The translations under genes and the position numbers were made by a program. Positions 2,310 to 20,297 of a stretch of DNA of 20,887 nucleotides are shown piece after piece. Source of the DNA: a virus; IMG/VR virus record IMGVR_UViG_3300001373_000023, positions 1 through 20,887 of that record; one strand, given 5' to 3'. Within the stretch, counting starts at the first letter, position 1, and every line of letters starts with the position of its first letter. A model generated the notes under the pieces. That model was not told the DNA's origin. It saw only the letters and a list, made by a program, of their open reading frames with translations, and ran no database searches.

Positions 2310-2471
2310 CTATTTCTTTACTTTTAGTCGTAATGCTTGTCTATAATAAGCATCAGTGACTTCAGTTATACTCCCTTGTTTACTTTTCACAAAGGACTTA
2401 AATCCATTGTGAGTCTTAAAGATAGTTCTACCATCTTTAAGAAGTACTTCTTGTTCTACTTCGTGGTTCAT
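2310..2471 (-). CDS. Hypothetical small phage protein, 53 aa
   Basis: Found by reading the minus strand between its neighbours. ATG at 2471 overlaps the upstream gene's TGA stop as ATGA, and the frame closes with TAG at 2310-2312. The product begins MNHEVEQEVLLKDGRTIF and continues with a basic, Lys-rich stretch; its C-terminus is YYRQALRLKVKK. The strand-like KDGRTIFKTHNGFKSFV resembles a small beta-rich or DNA/RNA-binding domain, but no family is recognised. The exact ATGA overlap and sensible composition support it as real. A long plus-strand frame at 2337-2606 is its shadow. Confidence 0.7.
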   Translation of the reverse strand: MNHEVEQEVLLKDGRTIFKTHNGFKSFVKSKQGSITEVTDAYYRQALRLKVKK

Positions 2472-2698
2472 CGTAAATTAGATTTGTTTCTAAACGTTTG
2501 TTTACCCCTAGATGAAGTTATTGGTTTTGAGGACTTATATTTTACATTAGGTGACTTCTTTTTCATCTTTAATGTAGATTTATTAGAAGTTTTCTTTTGT
2601 ATTTGAATTCTAGCAGGTAATGACCTCTGTATTATTTTCAAAATAGGGGCTTGTTCAGCAGTTATGTTTGCCAGTATACGATAGATTCTTGAATTCAT
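2468..2698 (-). CDS. Small highly basic phage protein, 76 aa
   Basis: The N-terminal 30 residues form a helical segment (NSRIYRILANITAEQAPIL). The rest is strongly basic and low in complexity, with many Lys, Arg and Ser (KMKKKSPNVKYKSSKPITSS, ending NKSNLR). Such tails usually bind nucleic acid, so a DNA- or RNA-binding role is a reasonable guess only. The ATG at 2698 overlaps the stop of the beta-barrel-like gene, and its own TGA overlaps the next start, both as ATGA. The three genes are therefore probably translationally coupled. Confidence 0.75.
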   Translation of the reverse strand: MNSRIYRILANITAEQAPILKIIQRSLPARIQIQKKTSNKSTLKMKKKSPNVKYKSSKPITSSRGKQTFRNKSNLR

Positions 2699-3204
2699 AG
2701 TTTAAATGTTCCTGTTATGAAGAATGATTGGACCCATTGTGCATCAGCACCTGAATACTCCATATCACTTCTATAATCGTTAGTAAATCTTCCACCTAAT
2801 AGAAACTTATCAGTTATTTTAAAGTCTACACCTAAATCTATACCAAATAACGGACCATTATAAGAAGAATAGTTTTCACTCTCTCCTCTCCATATATGAC
2901 CTAATCTGATACCTTCGTACAGCCTAGTTTCAACACCTAAGATAGCAGACTGTTGATTTAACCCTACACCGCCTGAAATATCATAGTATCCTCCGGTTAA
3001 TCCGGGGAGTATTTGACCACTAGCCTTCACATATCCAAAATGTGATACTAATGTAAACTCAGCTAATAGATTAATACTAGACTCTTTGTATGATGCATAA
3101 GGATCTGTTCCTATAGTAATCATAGTATACTCCTCTTTAGGAAAAGTAATCCATTGAGCACTACATATAGCAGTACTCAATAGAATAAGTATTAAAGCTT
3201 TCAT
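2695..3204 (-). CDS. Putative phage-encoded outer-membrane beta-barrel protein
   Basis: A 169-aa protein starting with a Sec-type signal peptide: MKALILILLSTAICSA, hydrophobic, with likely cleavage before QWITF. The Cys does not sit in a good lipobox. The mature part is a series of alternating amphipathic strands separated by Gly/Asn/Asp turns (FTLVSHFGYVKASGQI, GGYYDISGGVGL, AILGVETRLYEGIRLGHIW, LFGIDLGVDFKI, FLLGGRF), closing with SFFITGTFKL. That pattern is typical of small outer-membrane barrels. A phage copy would plausibly act at the host surface, for example in superinfection exclusion, but this is inferred. The ATG at 3204 overlaps the upstream TAA by one base; the TGA stop overlaps the next gene. 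Confidence 0.75.
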   Translation of the reverse strand: MKALILILLSTAICSAQWITFPKEEYTMITIGTDPYASYKESSINLLAEFTLVSHFGYVKASGQILPGLTGGYYDISGGVGLNQQSAILGVETRLYEGIRLGHIWRGESENYSSYNGPLFGIDLGVDFKITDKFLLGGRFTNDYRSDMEYSGADAQWVQSFFITGTFKL

Positions 3205-3515
3205 TAATTTAAAATGTTTTCTTTAATCCACTTGAGCCCTTGATTTTTCCACTGATTACTTTTACGAATCAAGACTTTATTTGCTTTAGGAAAATAATCT
3301 AATACACCAAACTTATCAGTTTGTGTGTCTATAACTATTTTATTACCATTAAAAGGTAATATTGTACAACCTTTAGCAATTAATTGTTCACTATAGTCTT
3401 GCTCTAAGAAACGCTCTACTCTAGCTTCTCTTAATCCTTTAGTTCTAAGGTTTAATGCTTTGAAGTCACTGTCTGCTTCAGCAGCGGCTTGATATAACTC
3501 TTCTGATTTTTTCAT
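3204..3515 (-). CDS. Hypothetical phage protein, 103 aa
   Basis: Unrecognised soluble protein. The N-terminal third is an alanine- and glutamate-rich helix (ELYQAAAEADSDFKAL) followed by a basic helix (RTKGLREARVERFLEQ). The second half is beta-like (NKIVIDTQTDKFGVLDYFPKA; KVLIRKSNQWK) and looks like a small globular domain. It ends one base into the signal-peptide gene (TAATG), suggesting coupling. Its start is 4 nt from the end of the small gene at 3520. Confidence 0.8.
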   Translation of the reverse strand: MKKSEELYQAAAEADSDFKALNLRTKGLREARVERFLEQDYSEQLIAKGCTILPFNGNKIVIDTQTDKFGVLDYFPKANKVLIRKSNQWKNQGLKWIKENILN

Positions 3516-3519
3516 TTTT

Positions 3520-3660
3520 TTATGATTTTAATAAGTCTTCTCTCCTTTGATTTACATAGATATCTAACCAAAATAACTTGAGAGTAGTAGGAATAAGTTC
3601 CCATCTAATTTCAGTTATTTTGGATAAGATAAATTCTTTTTGGCTTGATGAATATTTCAA
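3520..3660 (-). CDS. Hypothetical small phage protein, 46 aa, TTG start
   Basis: This fills the gap between 3515 and 3657 on the minus strand. It has no ATG at the right place, but a TTG at 3658-3660 overlaps the previous gene's TGA as TTGA, and the frame runs to TAA at 3520-3522. The product begins L/MKYSSSQKEFILSKITEIRW and continues with LIPTTLKLFWLDIYVNQRR. This reads as a well-mixed helical protein, not random translation. An ATG frame overlapping here (MGTYSYYSQ...) is less protein-like. Start choice and reality are moderately supported by the exact fit between neighbours. Confidence 0.5.
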   Translation of the reverse strand: MKYSSSQKEFILSKITEIRWELIPTTLKLFWLDIYVNQRREDLLKS

Positions 3661-3890
3661 AATAATCGTTCTTTGATTTTTAAACAAACTAGTATTAATA
3701 AAAACAATGGTAAAGCTAAGATAGACACTATTGCTATAATTTTAGTGTGTCTAACTTTATTGATTCTATCAATCTGCTCTAAACTCAACGATGTACTATT
3801 TTCTTCACTTATAATTAACATAATTGGAAGTAATAAGTACAATACTACACTGATAATAAACCAATATAGTAAAAAGGCTACAGCACTCAT
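3657..3890 (-). CDS. Small two-TM membrane protein, 77 aa
   Basis: Two clear hydrophobic segments: residues about 3-27 (VAFLLYWFIISVVLYLLLPI) and 51-69 (IIAIVSILALPLFLLILVCL). They are separated by a polar loop of about 23 residues (SEENSTSLSLEQIDRINK) and followed by a basic tail KIKERLF. Size and topology would suit a small inner-membrane effector such as a holin-like or exclusion protein, but no family signature is visible. Its ATG at 3890 overlaps the upstream TGA (ATGA), linking it to the single-TM gene. Its own TGA overlaps the small TTG-start gene. Confidence 0.8.
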   Translation of the reverse strand: MSAVAFLLYWFIISVVLYLLLPIMLIISEENSTSLSLEQIDRINKVRHTKIIAIVSILALPLFLLILVCLKIKERLF

Positions 3891-6549: not shown

Positions 6550-6966
6550 GATTTTCTCGATTAAATCGAGACGGCTTAGTAATTCAGGATTCTTAACTAA
6601 TTTATCGAAGTCGCATAAGCTCACTCTAAATTCTCTTTCTTTACGTGTAGCTTCAATTTCTTCTAAGCGGTTCAATTGAGTATAGTTATGATAACCAATA
6701 ACGTTATAACCTGGTTTGGTCATAGTTCCGTCTTCAGCTTCTAACAAGGTTTCTTCAAGTTCAATGAATGCAATATCGCCACTTTCTACATCGTTAAGAA
6801 ATCCTTTTTCATTCGATGTGAACATAATACCACGATAGGTAAACTTAGCGTAAGTATCGTAACCTAGTTCTTTCATTTTAGCGGCTACTTCTTTTTTAAA
6901 CTTAACGTCTTTTGCATTTAACTTCAAGTTAAGCAAGTCTTTTCCTTCAACAACAATAGTTTTCAT
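6532..6966 (-). CDS. Hypothetical phage protein, 144 aa
   Basis: A soluble, charged protein of 144 residues with no recognised family. A Lys-rich N-terminal half (LNAKDVKFKKEVAAKMKEL) leads to beta-like segments (YAKFTYRGIMFTSNE; GDIAFIELEETLLEAEDG). The C-terminal half is helical (RLEEIEATRKEREFRVSL; PELLSRLDLIEKIANASS). It stands alone between two non-coding structured stretches and is the first minus-strand gene at the divergent junction, which suits an early regulator or host-takeover protein; this is inference. The stop is TAG inside a hairpin. Confidence 0.8.
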   Translation of the reverse strand: MKTIVVEGKDLLNLKLNAKDVKFKKEVAAKMKELGYDTYAKFTYRGIMFTSNEKGFLNDVESGDIAFIELEETLLEAEDGTMTKPGYNVIGYHNYTQLNRLEEIEATRKEREFRVSLCDFDKLVKNPELLSRLDLIEKIANASS

Positions 6967-8387: not shown

Positions 8388-8744
8388 ATGGCACCACCAC
8401 CTAAAAAGTTAATGATAGAGTATGAATTAAAGTTCCTAGATAAGAAATTAAAGGAGCTTAAAGAATACATAGCTGCTACACCTTATTCTTCTCTAGAAGA
8501 TAGGAGTATAGTAGCTTCTAGTACTATGAATAAAAATGGGGAAGAGGTAGTGTCTTACAAGATAGTAGCTACTAAAGAAACCCAAAGAAAAGATCTCACC
8601 CAAGCTCTGAAAGATTATGCAGAGATAGTGAGAACTGTAGATGCTATGCGGACTGCAGATGAGAGTAAAAAAGTAGCGGTGAGAGGAGATGAGGTCTTAG
8701 GTGACCAGGCTGCAGAGTTTTTAAATAGTAGAAACAGTAAATAA
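8388..8744 (+). CDS. Hypothetical helical protein, candidate small terminase by position
   Basis: 118 residues, strongly helical: IEYELKFLDKKLKELKEYIA, LTQALKDYAEIVRTVDAMRT, then a Ser/Asn tail. The TAA stop overlaps the next ATG by one base (TAATG), directly coupling it to the large terminase. In many tailed phages the small terminase subunit lies just upstream of terL and is small and helical, so this is a candidate. However, no HTH or other TerS signature is visible, and crAss-like phages often have no recognisable TerS. Other possibilities are a packaging accessory or head protein. Confidence 0.75.
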   Translation: MAPPPKKLMIEYELKFLDKKLKELKEYIAATPYSSLEDRSIVASSTMNKNGEEVVSYKIVATKETQRKDLTQALKDYAEIVRTVDAMRTADESKKVAVRGDEVLGDQAAEFLNSRNSK

Positions 8745-10783
8745 TGAATTTAGACGGTTTACAAAATATCACGTATAAAGAATGGTACATTAATAGTGGA
8801 CGGGTTCCTGATCCACTATCTGATGAATATAAGTCTTTCTTTAATTTTCATAAACAGCTAGCATTAGAAGGGTTTATGATGGATGGGCAATATATCAATC
8901 CATTTTTATATTGGCATTTAAACTTCTGGAATACTGAAGTAGATATTATAGATGGGCGAGGAATTATTGGACAAAAATATGCTAATCCTTACCTGAGGGA
9001 TAATGAGTGGTTAGTGACTAATGAAATAGATAGGGCCCATTTCGAGAAGAAGGGCCTAGTTATTTTAGGGATTAGGCGTTTTGCTAAGTCTGTGCTCGAG
9101 GCTAGTTATATAGGATGGGGAGCAACTTTCGATGAGAACTCTCAGAATATTATAGCCGGTTTGAATGCGCCAGATATTAAGTTGATTACGGATAAAATAG
9201 ACAAGGGACTAAACTTCTTGCCTAAAGCCTGGAGATGGCAAAGAGTAGAGGATAATTGGAAACAACAGGTTACCCTGGGGATAAAAACTAAAGCAGGTGA
9301 GAGAATACCTTTCTCTCAGATCTTAATAAGAAACTTAGATGGTGGAGCTAATGAAGAAGCTATCGCTGGTACTAAACCTAGAAAACTTATTATAGATGAG
9401 ATAGGTAAAGGTTCTTTTCTAAGAGGATTACAAGCTGCGACTCCCGGATTTACTACACCATATGGGTGGGGGTGTTCTCCTATACTTACAGGGACTGGTG
9501 GGGATATGAAGATGTTCATGGATGCTAAATCATTAATGTTCGATGTAGATAATTTTAACTTCTTATCTTATAAGAGTTCTGATGATACTAAAACTGTACA
9601 TGGATTATTTATTAGTAACAAGTACAGAATGGAAGCTAAAGAAGACTCTACATTAGGGGCGTTTTTAGATTCTCCTAAAGATAGTGACTTACATAATGTA
9701 AAGATGTTAGTGAGCAATGCTGAGTTAGCAGATAAGATTACTGATGATAACATAGAGAAGAAGAAGAAAGCCGGGGATAGAGTTGCCTGGTTAAAAGAAA
9801 AGATGTACTTTCCTAAGGTAGTAAATGATATCTTTTTAAATGAGGATACTAACATTTTCGATATAGAAGCTGCCCAAAGACAAAAGGCCAAGTTATTACA
9901 GCTAGGTAAAACAGGTACACCTGTAATTTTATTTGATGATGGTGATGGCGTCAAACATGAGTTCACAGATAAGCTGCCTATATCAAACTTCCCACTGAAA
10001 GGAAGTGATCTGAAGGAGGCACCCGTAGTAATATATGAATTTCCTATGAGCAATCCTCCGTATGGATTATATATTGCAGGAGTTGACCCTTATAGACAAG
10101 GTAAAGCGGCGTATTCAGATTCCTTAGGTAGTGTGTACATCTATAAAAGGATGCATGAAATCTCAGGAGAAAAATATCAAGATATGTTCGTAGCTAGCTA
10201 CTGTGCTAGACCAGACAAGAAAGAGACCTGGGAAGAACAAGCCAGAATGCTTATTAAATATTATAATGCTAGGACCTTGTGCGAAAATGATGAGATGTCT
10301 TTTATAGACTACATGATTTCTAAGGGAGATGCACATTATTTAGAAAAACAACCAGCCTGGTTAAAAGAAATAGTTCCAAATACAACAGTTAATAGGGATT
10401 ATGGAATACATAGAAGTAGTGATAAAATAAGAGATTTTCTTCACGGGTGTTTAAAAACATATAGCGAAGAGCTTATAATAGAAGAAAAAAATGAAGATGG
10501 TGATGTTATTAAATCTGTAAAAGGGATGTCTAAAATTTTAGATCCAGTTTTATTAGAAGAAATGATACAATATAACGAAAGTATTGGTAACTTTGACAGA
10601 ATTATAGCAGCAGAATTAGCAATAGGGCTAGCTATGAAACTAGGAACTGTTATGGGAAAGATAGGTGGAAAAGCTGATCCTAGAATTTCTGCTTTATATT
10701 CAGGCAAGAATGCTAACAAATTATTTATACCAGACCAAAGTATTTTTACTAGTAATAAACCAAAATTAAAATTATTTAGATAA
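8744..10783 (+). CDS. Phage terminase large subunit (TerL)
   Basis: 679 residues with the expected two parts. The ATPase has a P-loop-like segment GIRRFAKS (109-116), Walker B LIIDEI (215-220) and a later ILTGTGGD (247-254). The P-loop has Ala where the usual pattern has Gly before the Lys. The RuvC-like nuclease shows YIAGVDPY with D448, CENDEM (E514, E517) and NFDRIIA with D618, spaced as metal-binding acids. The protein pumps DNA into the prohead and cuts concatemers. It overlaps the preceding small gene and the portal gene by one base each (TAATG). TerL of this size and arrangement is typical of crAss-like phages. Confidence 0.95.
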   Translation: MNLDGLQNITYKEWYINSGRVPDPLSDEYKSFFNFHKQLALEGFMMDGQYINPFLYWHLNFWNTEVDIIDGRGIIGQKYANPYLRDNEWLVTNEIDRAHFEKKGLVILGIRRFAKSVLEASYIGWGATFDENSQNIIAGLNAPDIKLITDKIDKGLNFLPKAWRWQRVEDNWKQQVTLGIKTKAGERIPFSQILIRNLDGGANEEAIAGTKPRKLIIDEIGKGSFLRGLQAATPGFTTPYGWGCSPILTGTGGDMKMFMDAKSLMFDVDNFNFLSYKSSDDTKTVHGLFISNKYRMEAKEDSTLGAFLDSPKDSDLHNVKMLVSNAELADKITDDNIEKKKKAGDRVAWLKEKMYFPKVVNDIFLNEDTNIFDIEAAQRQKAKLLQLGKTGTPVILFDDGDGVKHEFTDKLPISNFPLKGSDLKEAPVVIYEFPMSNPPYGLYIAGVDPYRQGKAAYSDSLGSVYIYKRMHEISGEKYQDMFVASYCARPDKKETWEEQARMLIKYYNARTLCENDEMSFIDYMISKGDAHYLEKQPAWLKEIVPNTTVNRDYGIHRSSDKIRDFLHGCLKTYSEELIIEEKNEDGDVIKSVKGMSKILDPVLLEEMIQYNESIGNFDRIIAAELAIGLAMKLGTVMGKIGGKADPRISALYSGKNANKLFIPDQSIFTSNKPKLKLFR

Positions 10784-13371
10784 TGGCAATTATACGATAT
10801 ACCAAAGACGAAAACATACGCTATGCTTATTTGAATATTTTTCCAGATCAGTTTAAAACTGAAAAAGAAAAACAAGAAGATAGTTACATCAAAAATACGA
10901 TGGATTACTTTTCCAATAAAGCGTACTCTGAGTATGTACAAAATAAAAATACCTTCGTTAGAAACTATGATATTCTAAAAGGTATTTTAACTTTAGACGA
11001 CTTTTATCAACAACCGGATGAAGTCAAAAGTTTTACGGATATGCTTACAGCTCCTCAGGAGTTACCAGCATACGTACAACAGTATTCTATTATGACTACT
11101 CCTGTTAATGAACTCGTTGGGGAAATATCTAAAAGGCCAGATGGTTATAAAGTAAAAGCTTTCGATGATGATTCTAGATCAGCAGAACTAGAATTTAAAA
11201 CAGAAACTTTAAATGAGTTTATTTTAGCAAAGGCTAAAGAAAAAATATTAAAAAAAGTACAAATTAATGGGGAAGAAATAGATGAGGAAACACTCCAACA
11301 AAAAACAATGGAGCAAGTCCAAGAAGAGTTAGATTCTTATACATCTATTGCTGAAAAATGGGGAAACCATACACTCAACGCTGTAAAAGCTTATTTTAAT
11401 ATAAAAGAAATGAGTGAAGATACTTTTAGGGACTTGCTCATAAGTAATAAAGAGTACTTTCATATTTATGAAGATAATTCTAAACTAGGCTTTAATATAG
11501 AAGTAGCCAATCCTAAAAATGTTTGGGTCCTTACTACACCAGACAGAAAATATACTACAGATGTTACCGGCAGAAATAGAGGGGCATACGCCACTGGCAC
11601 CGTGCAAGTACTAGAGTTATCAGAAATCATAGAATCTTGTCCTGACCTTAGTAAAGAAGAAATAGATCACCTTAGGTCTTCTCTTCAAGATTATGGTTTA
11701 ATTAATGTAAGAGAATCTAATTTAGGGAACCCTGCCGCCGGCGAGGGTATAGATACTATTACGTATGATACTTTTGATCCATTAGTTCTTCAGACTAGAA
11801 TGATGATAGAGTCTGAGATGAAAGAAAATAACGATGGGTTACAAGACTTCTTAGGTCTTACGAACAACGTTAGCTCCTTTGGATACAAGTATGTAGTAGT
11901 TACTTCTTATTGGACTTCTAAGCGTAAAGTAGGTAAAGTAGTGTTCTTAGATGAGATGGGTAATGAGCAGTCTATGCTAGTAGATGAAAAGTATGTAGCT
12001 AAAACTATACCTACAGAAATTTCATTAGAGTGGGGATGGATTAATCAAATGTATCAAGGAAAGAAAATTGGGCCAGATATCTATCACATGAAACCTTTTA
12101 AATTGTTATCTTATAATCCTATTATAGGTACATGTTTTGAAATCAAAAATACACAGTCTAGAAGTTTAGTAGATTTAATGAAACCTTTTCAAGTTATCTA
12201 CAATATTTGTATGAATCAATTGTACAAACTTTTAGAAAAAGAAGTAGGTAAAGTTCAGCTAATGTCTATTAGACACATACCTATTCCTAAAGATGGAGAT
12301 CCCCAAGACGCACTAGATATTTGGGAAGCTGAGGCTAGGGCTAGAGGCGTCGTCTTTGTAGATGATAGCCCAGAAAATTTAAAATCACCAAGCTCATTTA
12401 ATCAGTTTACTTCATTAGATTTAACTAGAACCCAAGAGATACAGTCCAGATATACCTTAGCCCAACAGATGAAACTAGAATGCTGGGAACTAGTAGGTAT
12501 GTCTAAGCAACGTATGGGTTCTGTGTCTGCGAGCGAGACTGCTACAGGGACCAATACAGCAATGCAACAATCTTACTCTCAAACTGAGCCACTCTTTATA
12601 GCTCATGAATATGTAATGGGGCAACTGTACCAAGCTATCATAGATGCTTCATTATACATAGAGAGCTCGAAAGAAGAAACCACGTTATCTTATATCACAT
12701 CTGAAGGACAAAGCGCTTTTGTGAAAGTTAACGGGTCTGACCTTAGACTTAAAGACCTTTGGGTATTCCCTACTAATAGACCTGAGGATAATGTAATGTT
12801 TACAGAGATGAGAGCACTTTCTCAAGCTATACTACAAAATGGTGGTTCGCTTTATGATATTATAGAACTTTACTCTACTAAGAGTTTACGTGAGATTAAG
12901 AAAACATTTAAAGACCTCAAAGATAAACAAGAGGAACAAATGGCTATTCAAAATCAACAAAAACAACAAGAGTTAGAACAAGCTCAAAAACAATATGAGT
13001 TAGGCTTACAGCAAGCAGAAGCTGCTAGAGCTGCAAACGAGGCTAATCAAAATTATCAAAATGAGCTAGATAGAATTAATAAGAAAGAAGTAGCTGCTAT
13101 AAATGCATTAAGTAGAAATGAAAATGCTACTGCTGATATAGATAATTCTGGTATAGCAGATTCATTAGAAGTAACTAACTTAATGAACTCACGAGAAAAA
13201 GCTAATAATGATTTTACTGCATCTATGGCCAAGATTCAATCTGAAGCCAGCTTAGAAAGAGCAGCATTAGCTGTTAAACGTGAGGAATTACAAGTGGCTA
13301 GAGATAACCAAGCTAATGATTTAGCTATAGCTAAACAGAATGCCAAAGGTAGAGGTACTAACAAAAAATAA
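10783..13371 (+). CDS. Phage portal protein
   Basis: 862 residues, large for a portal, as in crAss-like phages. The region around 107-119 (PVNELVGEISKRPDG) and the following KVKAFDDDSRSAELEF are typical of the family. The middle (LMKPFQVIYNICMNQLYKLL; TAQEIQSRY-like LTRTQEIQSRYTLA) carries the conserved helical core, and VGMSKQRMGSVSASETATG is a recognisable block. The C-terminal 140 residues are a Gln/Ala/Glu-rich coiled coil. It forms the dodecameric DNA channel at the capsid vertex. It is coupled to terL by a one-base overlap. Confidence 0.9.
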   Translation: MAIIRYTKDENIRYAYLNIFPDQFKTEKEKQEDSYIKNTMDYFSNKAYSEYVQNKNTFVRNYDILKGILTLDDFYQQPDEVKSFTDMLTAPQELPAYVQQYSIMTTPVNELVGEISKRPDGYKVKAFDDDSRSAELEFKTETLNEFILAKAKEKILKKVQINGEEIDEETLQQKTMEQVQEELDSYTSIAEKWGNHTLNAVKAYFNIKEMSEDTFRDLLISNKEYFHIYEDNSKLGFNIEVANPKNVWVLTTPDRKYTTDVTGRNRGAYATGTVQVLELSEIIESCPDLSKEEIDHLRSSLQDYGLINVRESNLGNPAAGEGIDTITYDTFDPLVLQTRMMIESEMKENNDGLQDFLGLTNNVSSFGYKYVVVTSYWTSKRKVGKVVFLDEMGNEQSMLVDEKYVAKTIPTEISLEWGWINQMYQGKKIGPDIYHMKPFKLLSYNPIIGTCFEIKNTQSRSLVDLMKPFQVIYNICMNQLYKLLEKEVGKVQLMSIRHIPIPKDGDPQDALDIWEAEARARGVVFVDDSPENLKSPSSFNQFTSLDLTRTQEIQSRYTLAQQMKLECWELVGMSKQRMGSVSASETATGTNTAMQQSYSQTEPLFIAHEYVMGQLYQAIIDASLYIESSKEETTLSYITSEGQSAFVKVNGSDLRLKDLWVFPTNRPEDNVMFTEMRALSQAILQNGGSLYDIIELYSTKSLREIKKTFKDLKDKQEEQMAIQNQQKQQELEQAQKQYELGLQQAEAARAANEANQNYQNELDRINKKEVAAINALSRNENATADIDNSGIADSLEVTNLMNSREKANNDFTASMAKIQSEASLERAALAVKREELQVARDNQANDLAIAKQNAKGRGTNKK

Positions 13372-14759: not shown

Positions 14760-15497
14760 ATGGCAATTCAAACAATTCCTGGATTAACTGGTTTTACCTA
14801 CGCTAGGGTGGCTTCGATGGACAAACGGGCAGTAGGAAAATTAACAGATTCTAATCACTTAGAATCCTTTCATAATACTGAACCAGCAGATTATGATAAG
14901 AAAATCATCAGCTTATATACACAGTCTTCTCTGTATAGCAATGACTTTCTTGATATGATCAATAAAGCAACACCGTTTTACATTAACAACAACAGTGATG
15001 CTTGGAAATGGGACATTCAAGTTCCTTACAAATTTCCTAAAATCATCGACATTCCTGTATCAACTGCGGCGTTAATTGGTGCATCTAAAACAGGTATTGA
15101 TGGACAAGAATTTAATCTAGTTTTAGATTCTAATGAATTCTCAAAACATGCTATTATCTCTTTAGGTACTCGTCAGTACGGGCCTAGATTGTATGTAACC
15201 AAAGACCCTGTTCCTTATAATACAGGTAGTTTGTACACTTTCACACTTGTTTCAGAAAATCCAATGATTGATTTTGTTTCTCCTACTTTCTTACAGGTTG
15301 GGGTAGAATGTGAATTAGTGGATGCTGCTATTGGTGAATTTGATCAAGACTTATTAGGTCTTCCTAAATTAGGTGAAAAAATCTCTATGTTTGAGTCTTT
15401 AGGTTCTGCATATGGATATGAGCACAAAATCACAGAATGGGCTGATGATAGAATGTTAAAAGATACTGTTACTGGTAAAGCATTAGATATCTTATAA
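14760..15497 (+). CDS. Major capsid protein, N-terminal part (frame interrupted)
   Basis: 245 residues (MAIQTIPGLTGFTYARVASM...), matching the N-terminal half of crAss-type HK97-fold capsid proteins: N-arm, extended loop region and start of the spine helix (SMFESLGSAYGYEHKITEWA; DDRMLKDTVTGKALDIL). It ends at TAA 15495-15497, in the middle of what should be a helix. The next frame is open from 15487 and reads SYKWEPFIEFWMRKSMLE, which continues the family pattern. A restored protein would be about 505 residues, the usual size. The break could be an assembly error, a real mutation or programmed recoding; see findings. Confidence 0.9.
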   Translation: MAIQTIPGLTGFTYARVASMDKRAVGKLTDSNHLESFHNTEPADYDKKIISLYTQSSLYSNDFLDMINKATPFYINNNSDAWKWDIQVPYKFPKIIDIPVSTAALIGASKTGIDGQEFNLVLDSNEFSKHAIISLGTRQYGPRLYVTKDPVPYNTGSLYTFTLVSENPMIDFVSPTFLQVGVECELVDAAIGEFDQDLLGLPKLGEKISMFESLGSAYGYEHKITEWADDRMLKDTVTGKALDIL

Positions 15498-15522: not shown

Positions 15523-16275
15523 ATGCGTAAATCTATGCTTGAACTTAAAGTGAAACGTATGATTTGGGCTAAACCTGGAACAGTGAAATCTGCAGGGTCT
15601 AAACAAGAAGTTAAACGTACTTCTGCTGGTGTATATCACAGAATGCGTAATAACGGAAACTTAGTTCCTTATAACAGAGGAGAGTTTTCTGCTAATTTGA
15701 TTCGTTCTGTATTTGGAGATTTATTCTACAGAAGAGTAGATGTGAAAGACAGACGCGTTAAAATGTACACCAATGAAGCTGGATTCGATGTATTCCAACA
15801 AGCTTTAAAAGATGATGCATTGAATAGTGGTCTTACTTTTATGGCAGATTCTGGAAACAGATTTATGCAAGGAGAAGGACAGCATATCACTTATAACTTT
15901 GCATTTGATGCAATGGTTACTCGTGAAACTGGTCGTGTAGAGCTTATTCACTTGAAAGAGTTGGATTTACCACAAACTAATCTAGAGTTTGGTCAAAACA
16001 AAAAATCTACACCTGTATTTATGGTGTTTGATGTGTCTCCTACAGGAGATGGTTCTCTGATCAACAACATTAGAGAGGTACGTTTACAAGGTGCTCCTTC
16101 TATGACTTGGGGTTATATTGATGGTACTCGTCACCACTTAGGTTTTGCTAAGTCTCAAGGTATGAGTTCTGCTAATAAATTCCCAGGGTATGAAATCTGG
16201 ATGAAAGACAGATGCGATGTTTTCATTGAAGATTTGTCAAGAACTGTATTGATTGAGGAAATTCCTCAGTTCTAA
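15523..16275 (+). CDS. Major capsid protein, C-terminal part (frame interrupted)
   Basis: 250 residues from the ATG at 15523, but the frame is open upstream to 15487, so this ATG need not be the true boundary. The sequence continues the MCP: WAKPGTVKSAGSKQEV, SAGVYHRMRNNGNLVPYNRG, FGDLFYRRVDVKDRRVKMYT, ELDLPQTNLEFGQNKKSTPV, and ends IEDLSRTVLIEEIPQF. These are conserved axial and peripheral domain segments in crAss-like capsids. If translated separately from the ATG it would be a second polypeptide. A strong terminator follows within 10 nt, fitting the high expression expected of a capsid gene. Confidence 0.9.
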   Translation: MRKSMLELKVKRMIWAKPGTVKSAGSKQEVKRTSAGVYHRMRNNGNLVPYNRGEFSANLIRSVFGDLFYRRVDVKDRRVKMYTNEAGFDVFQQALKDDALNSGLTFMADSGNRFMQGEGQHITYNFAFDAMVTRETGRVELIHLKELDLPQTNLEFGQNKKSTPVFMVFDVSPTGDGSLINNIREVRLQGAPSMTWGYIDGTRHHLGFAKSQGMSSANKFPGYEIWMKDRCDVFIEDLSRTVLIEEIPQF

Positions 16276-19833: not shown

Positions 19834-19938
19834 ATGGCTAATTGTGCAGGATGTGGTACATCAGTAGGGTGTAGCTGTCAACTAAAAAATGGATTATGTG
19901 CTACTTGTTTAGCTAAACAAAATGCTGAGAAAAAATGA
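19834..19938 (+). CDS. Small Cys-rich protein, 34 aa
   Basis: A short frame from ATG 19834 to TGA 19936-19938. The product reads MANCAGCGTSVGCSCQLKNG then LCATCLAKQNAEKK. Six Cys-x2-Cys-like or Cys-x-Cys residues (NCAGC, GCSC, LCATC) suggest one or two zinc sites or disulfides in a minimal fold. The TGA overlaps the next gene's ATG (ATGATG), showing tight coupling. Tiny Cys proteins with this pattern occur in other Bacteroidota phages by my recollection. The strong motif and exact gene fit support it despite the length. Confidence 0.75.
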   Translation: MANCAGCGTSVGCSCQLKNGLCATCLAKQNAEKK

Positions 19939-20297
19939 TGATAACTCCTAGGTTAACGGATTGTGTAGAGTGTGTAGACATTCTAGCTCTACAAGAACAA
20001 ATAGATTGCAAAATAGCAAATCTAGCTAGTTGTGCATACAATAAAATTATTTATGGTATGAATACTGATTGTTCTGCAGACACTGTGTTTGCTCTTTTAA
20101 ATTATAGAAGAATTTTACTTTACAGATATTTTAATCCTATGTATGCTAATCAGTATTCATTGTATCAAATAGCAGGCAGAGTAAAAACATTAGTAGCTGG
20201 AGCGAAGTGTGATTGTGTAAAGAAAGAATCTATTTTTGAAATAACAACGACTACTACTACTATAGCACCAACAACATCAACAACAACAACAACTTAA
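19935..20297 (+). CDS. Cys-containing small structural protein with Thr-rich tail, 120 aa
   Basis: The body is helical with several Cys (RLTDCVECVDILALQEQIDC; KTLVAGAKCDCVKKES) and conserved aromatic stretches (LLNYRRILLYRYFNPMYA; NQYSLYQIAGRVKTL). The last 20 residues are almost all Thr with a central IAPTTS, encoded by an ACA/ACT/ACC trinucleotide run (20248-20296). Low-complexity Thr tails often mark exposed, flexible surface appendages. It starts inside the stop of the 34-aa gene and is 13 nt before the next start, in the appendage block. Function is inferred only. Confidence 0.7.
   Translation: MMITPRLTDCVECVDILALQEQIDCKIANLASCAYNKIIYGMNTDCSADTVFALLNYRRILLYRYFNPMYANQYSLYQIAGRVKTLVAGAKCDCVKKESIFEITTTTTTIAPTTSTTTTT

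Follow-up and report, generated by a model that had tools for sequence, protein, structure and literature searches.

The window analysed here, which spans an entire virus record (20,887 bases), carries on its minus strand, at 2695-3204, a gene for a 169-aa protein that is very probably, as judged from structural models, a small eight-stranded outer-membrane beta-barrel. Lacking a match in curated families, the protein and its relatives in other phages form a new sequence family, to be set beside the phage-encoded outer-membrane barrels that are already known (Lom and named BFVD entries). What might such a protein do for a phage? With rather less than even confidence, and by analogy, we propose that the barrel serves superinfection exclusion, as an envelope protein that would block adsorption of other phages.

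The gene was defined from the ORF list, two AlphaFold models and their fold matches; its strand had not been given in the preliminary description. It is one of a series of small minus-strand genes that starts near position 6966 and continues downwards; the genes for terminase (phrog_6681, E 3.5e-80), portal (phrog_6547, E 2.7e-83) and capsid (phrog_11589), as assigned in PHROG scans, lie on the other strand. The junction sequences show overlaps with the neighbouring genes on both sides. Just upstream, the stop of a 103-aa gene (3204-3515, minus strand) overlaps the barrel ATG by one base (TAATG), and blastp finds a relative of this gene in the IMG/VR contig L003 (8971-9288, 41%), about 2.5 kb from the barrel gene of that contig. 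Just downstream, the ATG of a gene for a 76-aa basic protein (2468-2698, minus strand) overlaps the barrel stop (ATGA). The gene layout suggests early expression, and the run of small genes opposite the head genes agrees with the earlier placement of the gene in a phage cluster of early type. Its GC content (0.347; GC3 0.212) resembles that of its neighbours and of the window (0.331), so there is no sign of recent arrival. When the window was scanned with a Bacteroidota-type promoter pattern, two matches were obtained against 1.13 expected, neither of them near the barrel gene; 31 of 100 shuffles gave as many. Two other small proteins of the region deserve mention. A minus-strand ORF at 1588-1875 (95 aa) weakly resembles families of sigma factors and transcription regulators (best E 1.5e-4), and a 77-aa protein encoded upstream of the barrel gene, at 3657-3890, has two hydrophobic stretches when inspected by eye.

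The N-terminus of the barrel protein resembles a signal peptide. In 8/8 relatives [AS]Q (a simple pattern) comes after a hydrophobic stretch recognised by eye. The predicted signal comprises residues 1-16 (3157-3204, minus strand), with cleavage expected between CSA and Q under the usual cleavage rule, and the models place a helix at residues 2-16 or 2-15. A lipoprotein was considered and rejected, a conserved Cys being absent among the eight relatives. AlphaFold was run on an alignment of four sequences (run 1) and again after addition of Peternella_1 as the fifth (run 2). Mean pLDDT and pTM were 77.6 and 0.68 in run 1, 80.1 and 0.71 in run 2; the five models of each run had pLDDT values of 77.6, 77.0, 73.2, 67.1 and 35.8, and of 80.1, 78.6, 77.8, 42.2 and 37.3, respectively. 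Both models consist of the signal helix and eight long strands in near-identical places (residues 26-34, 45-53, 57-66 or 57-65, 73-88, 91-106, 115-129, 134-145 and 156-168), to which run 2 adds a short strand at 18-20. In the models and in the face analysis described below, the strand region covers residues 26-168 (2701-3129, minus strand), strand 156-168 being the closing C-terminal one. The motif DPYASYKE (residues 34-41; 3082-3105, minus strand) falls in the first loop, which would be extracellular in the usual topology; this region is a helix in the run-1 model and coil in the run-2 model.

Which known folds do these models resemble? Foldseek against the PDB at E <= 0.001 returned 8 chains for one run and 12 for the other, all of them structures or models of OmpA, OprF, Ail, NspA and OmpX, with moderate TM-scores of about 0.4-0.6. 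VIA matched a designed transmembrane barrel (Z 16.5), NspA (16.4, rmsd 3.2 over 141 aligned residues), OmpA (15.9, 2.2 over 128) and OprF (15.8, 2.7 over 132); PagL (14.4), PagP (11.8), OmpW and OprG were also among the matches, and the best 19 rows, from Z 16.5 to 11.8, are all outer-membrane or designed transmembrane barrels. Eight strands are modelled, and the fold matches suggest that this even number closes into a barrel. Below these come the designed barrel 6ohh (Z 11.7, about equal to PagP), PsbO of photosystem II (up to 9.8) and VtrC (9.2), which we take to be soluble barrels. Could the protein then be an exported soluble barrel rather than a membrane barrel? Despite these three matches we hold this to be highly unlikely, both from the membrane-type barrels that fill the best 19 rows and from the pattern of conservation on the strand faces.

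This pattern was analysed in an alignment of the eight relatives with 5000 column shuffles; the strand limits were taken from AlphaFold models built with five of the eight sequences, so the face test is not wholly independent. On the interface scale the two faces of every one of the eight strands differ in the sign of their mean, and none of the 5000 shuffles of strand columns gave a summed face contrast as strong. On average it is the polar face, where Arg, Lys, Asp, Glu, Gly and Thr abound, that is better conserved (14 of 5000 shuffles reach the observed value), as it also is in seven of the eight strands, strand 45-53 being the exception with a less conserved polar face. From the fold matches and the conservation we infer that the polar face lines the inside of the barrel and the nonpolar face the outside. 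A conserved polar face is as expected inside a small outer-membrane barrel and the opposite of a soluble core. The conserved residues, being partly inside the barrel, may be structural. These results bear out most of what the preliminary description had read from the gene, namely an N-terminal signal peptide, a barrel-like protein and a C-terminal strand SFFITGTFKL, with which the translation indeed ends. It had also counted 'eight to ten' amphipathic strands: the alternation stands, and the number is eight. A confident soluble fold other than a barrel, named beforehand as the outcome to be looked for against the barrel, did not appear in the structure prediction.

Seven relatives were found, all in phage records: in three IMG/VR contigs (L003, L004 and L005), the only environmental relatives in our scans of viral contigs, and in MaF61, Peternella_1, JQ and Gundel_1. 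Each of the eight records has one copy of the gene. Direct matches to the window protein are those of L003 (51% identical over 144 aa, E 4e-39, indicating conservation as a protein), L004 (37%), MaF61 (34%), Peternella_1 (33%) and L005 (31%). The members from JQ (QIG62289) and Gundel_1 (gp51), both hypothetical proteins, did not match the window protein directly in blastp at E 1e-4; they belong to the family by sequence through L004 and Peternella_1 and, for JQ, also through MaF61. The loop-1 motif is kept as DP[YN]A[ST][YI]K[ED] in six of the eight members, JQ and Gundel_1 having a shorter loop 1 without DPYASYKE. In the tree of the eight proteins the window groups with L003, L004 with MaF61 and JQ with Gundel_1; the carrier labels cluster no more than in many shuffles, 82 of 200 being as low. 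The rows are too few to count transfers, and the tree neither proves nor excludes transfer between carriers. In L005 the barrel gene is directly followed by that for a small protein (746-1228) with an HCQHGHGRT stretch, which we take to be a phosphatase-like motif; this protein has no PHROG match.

The window protein itself matches nothing in the Pfam, NCBIfam, PADLOC, PHROG or PDB sequence families: Pfam gave no family at E up to 1 and then up to 5, and the PDB no sequence match up to E 10. Seven of the eight members were scanned against Pfam without a match to the Ail/OmpX/Lom profile; the Gundel_1 member, left out there, was covered by NCBIfam and PADLOC only, and PADLOC returned nothing for any of the eight. 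The signals that did emerge were weak. The best in PHROG was phrog_15595 (E 0.0072, in one of five members), JQ gave a Pfam zinc-finger match below the cut-off (E 0.016), and PF13505 (OMP_b-brl) was seen in MaF61 alone of five members, with 13.9 bits (E 0.062) against a curated cut-off of 28.7 bits. PF13505 had no match in the window record, and a control matched in 4 of 14 genomes. A literature search of titles and abstract openings yielded no description of the family. The barrel gene is annotated only as hypothetical in MaF61, Peternella_1, JQ and Gundel_1, and the words 'outer membrane' do not occur in the main texts, as far as these were available, of PMC13269007 (MaF61), PMC8776804 (Peternella and Gundel) and PMC11267871 (JQ).

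The carriers are unlike one another. According to the respective papers, MaF61 is a Flavobacterium phage of 168 kb with the form of a myovirus (PMC13269007), the Winogradskyella phage Peternella_1, which has transposases, is Mu-like (PMC8776804), and JQ, from Tenacibaculum, has been placed in a new family (PMC11267871). Gundel_1, likewise a Tenacibaculum phage, is filed under Pachyviridae. The gene is not peculiar to the window phage, being carried by phages of the window type as well as by a Mu-like one, a myovirus of 168 kb and one assigned to another family. The families of the window terminase and portal match in four of the eight carriers (the window, G001, G003 and Gundel_1) and miss G002, MaF61, Peternella_1 and JQ, where it should be borne in mind that IMG/VR records may be incomplete; with the single window terminase sequence as query, three of the eight match. 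The large virion protein of the L004 contig has no match in the other seven records. We also compared 510 ORFs of at least 45 aa at E 1e-4 between eight stretches of 6.7-24 kb, which are stretches and not whole genomes. Among 22 protein matches between stretches, 21 join barrel to barrel, and the remaining one links the 103-aa gene of the window to its L003 relative; MaF61 and L004, for instance, have barrels 51% identical and share no other match between their compared stretches. The barrel thus behaves as a lone cargo gene, which fits selection for what the gene itself does to the cell. In JQ it sits between terminase and portal, and in Peternella_1 it comes after two small proteins with hydrophobic stretches.

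Did the gene originate in a bacterial host? Capture from the host had been suggested and found no backing in two limited scans of bacterial genomes. These scans covered 84,980 species, each represented by a single genome, and used short exact patterns only, from alignment A1 and from the MaF61 protein; they gave 18 and 88 pattern stretches in genome contigs, respectively, and no confirmed relative. Limited to these patterns, the scans can neither support nor refute a host origin. When plasmids were searched with the L005 protein, six Rhizobium records came up at E 0.6, within a carboxylase gene, which we took as chance. The accompanying remark that such a protein is uncommon in phages was right only in part. 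Among viral models (BFVD), where the best fold match is an uncharacterised protein of Gundel_1 (E 5.1e-6) that is also a sequence relative, 21 models matched at E <= 0.001, and 12 of these bear the names outer membrane protein, OmpA, porin, opacity protein or similar. The idea that the barrel alters a surface receptor is plausible.

The window is, from its size, probably a fragment of a genome, and the host of its virus is probably a member of the Bacteroidota. In the phage collection its terminase and portal match crNNN-series gut phages and phages of Bacteroides, Flavobacterium and Cellulophaga, which we take to be crAss-like by name. For the region 8744-13371, the terminase and portal matches ranked first are those of Leptolyngbya phage Lbo-JY46 (41% and 28%), recorded from the cyanobacterium Leptolyngbya boryana, ahead of Bacteroidota phages. 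The major capsid gene is split into plus-strand ORFs 14760-15497 and 15523-16275 in different frames, which match positions 19-219 and 269-489 of phrog_11589; the second frame is open from 15487, and the split may be a frameshift, an assembly error or real. The ORF at 19935-20297 ends in a threonine-rich run (TTTTTTIAPTTSTTTTT).

How does the barrel compare with named systems? Lom of lambda and Ail/OmpX/PagC are, like it, small, exported, eight-stranded outer-membrane barrels, and Lom is phage-encoded (PMC4198210, in part). Ail and OmpX also rank high among the fold matches, and the window model predicts an OmpX-like eight-stranded fold. Unlike Lom and Ail, the present family has its own loop-1 motif, and its carriers infect, or probably infect, Bacteroidota. 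As the window protein has no Pfam match, it also has none to the Ail/Lom model that presumably exists in Pfam. The N-terminal barrel of OmpA and OprF, and NspA, likewise have eight strands and are among the best structural matches; the window protein is without the periplasmic C-terminal domain and without a PDB sequence match. Phage outer-membrane proteins named in BFVD with a matching barrel are Caudovirales A0A6J5LBY6, proteins of Synechococcus phage S-CBWM1 and Vibrio phage nt-1, and the OmpA-domain protein of Cellulophaga phage phi17:2; identity in these fold alignments is 11-12%, the phi17:2 protein has 327 residues, and the host of phi17:2 belongs to the Bacteroidota.

Kept alone in unlike phages and with a surface product, the gene most likely acts on the envelope of the infected cell. 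Under the proposal of superinfection exclusion, the barrel would be made as part of the series of small genes, which are coupled in translation and read in the direction away from the head genes, exported by Sec and presumably inserted by the host BAM complex. Its conserved loop 1 and charged rim would bind an outer-membrane component of the host at the surface of the infected cell, and the bound component would no longer be usable for adsorption of further phages. Progeny would thereby be shielded from debris. Computation supports the ORF, the signal, the eight strands, the membrane-type faces and the presence in several phage types; BAM insertion, early timing, binding of a partner and exclusion are steps that we infer. 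Small outer-membrane-directed phage proteins are used for exclusion elsewhere: T5 Llp acts on FhuA (PMC9586334, in part) and Rtp45 on LptDE (PMC12685063, in part). Llp is a periplasmic lipoprotein and not a barrel according to the former source, so the parallel, a shared proposed role at an outer-membrane receptor, is one of role only. Against exclusion speak the location of the JQ gene between terminase and portal, the lack of a PADLOC match in all eight members, and Lom, a phage barrel of like size that the available part of PMC4198210 links to adhesion and not to exclusion.

The association of Lom with adhesion is consistent instead with a barrel that stabilises the envelope or remodels the surface in the manner of OmpX or OmpA, keeping the infected or lysogenic cell intact or altering its surface, with no effect on adsorption. 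The fold matches to OmpA, OprF, OmpX and Ail and the Mu-like nature of Peternella_1 point the same way, and we regard such a function as possible, if rather unlikely; Gundel_1, listed without an integrase in the table of PMC8776804, is harder to reconcile with a trait of lysogeny alone. The same position in JQ, together with the two small proteins that precede the Peternella_1 barrel and the window 77-aa protein, which could be holin-like, might rather indicate an aid to lysis, a protein that weakens or perforates the outer membrane late in infection. This we consider unlikely: the window barrel lies opposite the head genes, none of the nine minus-strand neighbours scanned matched a PHROG lysis family, the lumen, to judge from the conserved charged face, is probably closed, and Peternella_1 has a named amidase and holin (PMC8776804, in part).

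A closed lumen would also weigh against a small channel through which the infected cell would take up a nutrient or ion, a role that the fold matches to OmpW and OprG bring to mind. Conserved Arg, Lys, Asp and Glu abound on the polar face, a sign that salt bridges may close the lumen, and eight-stranded barrels seldom form wide pores; a channel seems a poor prospect. PagL and PagP, found among the fold matches at Z 14.4 and 11.8, raise the question of a lipid-modifying enzyme that changes lipid A and hence the phage receptor, and all five rows of alignment A1 share S38. The eight-row alignment has no invariant His or Ser, and what we assume to be the catalytic residues of PagL and PagP have no clear counterpart in the family, making an enzyme of this kind very improbable.

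Superinfection exclusion is thus the function we put forward, tentatively, for this barrel. A bolder form of the proposal, which we regard as doubtful, is that of a phage-specific barrel family, the lone gene of crAss-type, Mu-like and other Bacteroidota phages, which would exclude rivals by means of a conserved loop directed at a single shared target in the envelope. To our knowledge, the ways in which Bacteroidota phages, crAss-like ones included, protect infected cells from competitors are poorly known. Four isolates with known hosts carry the gene, so its role is directly testable. If the proposal is true, this would be the first superinfection-exclusion barrel of Bacteroidota known to us.
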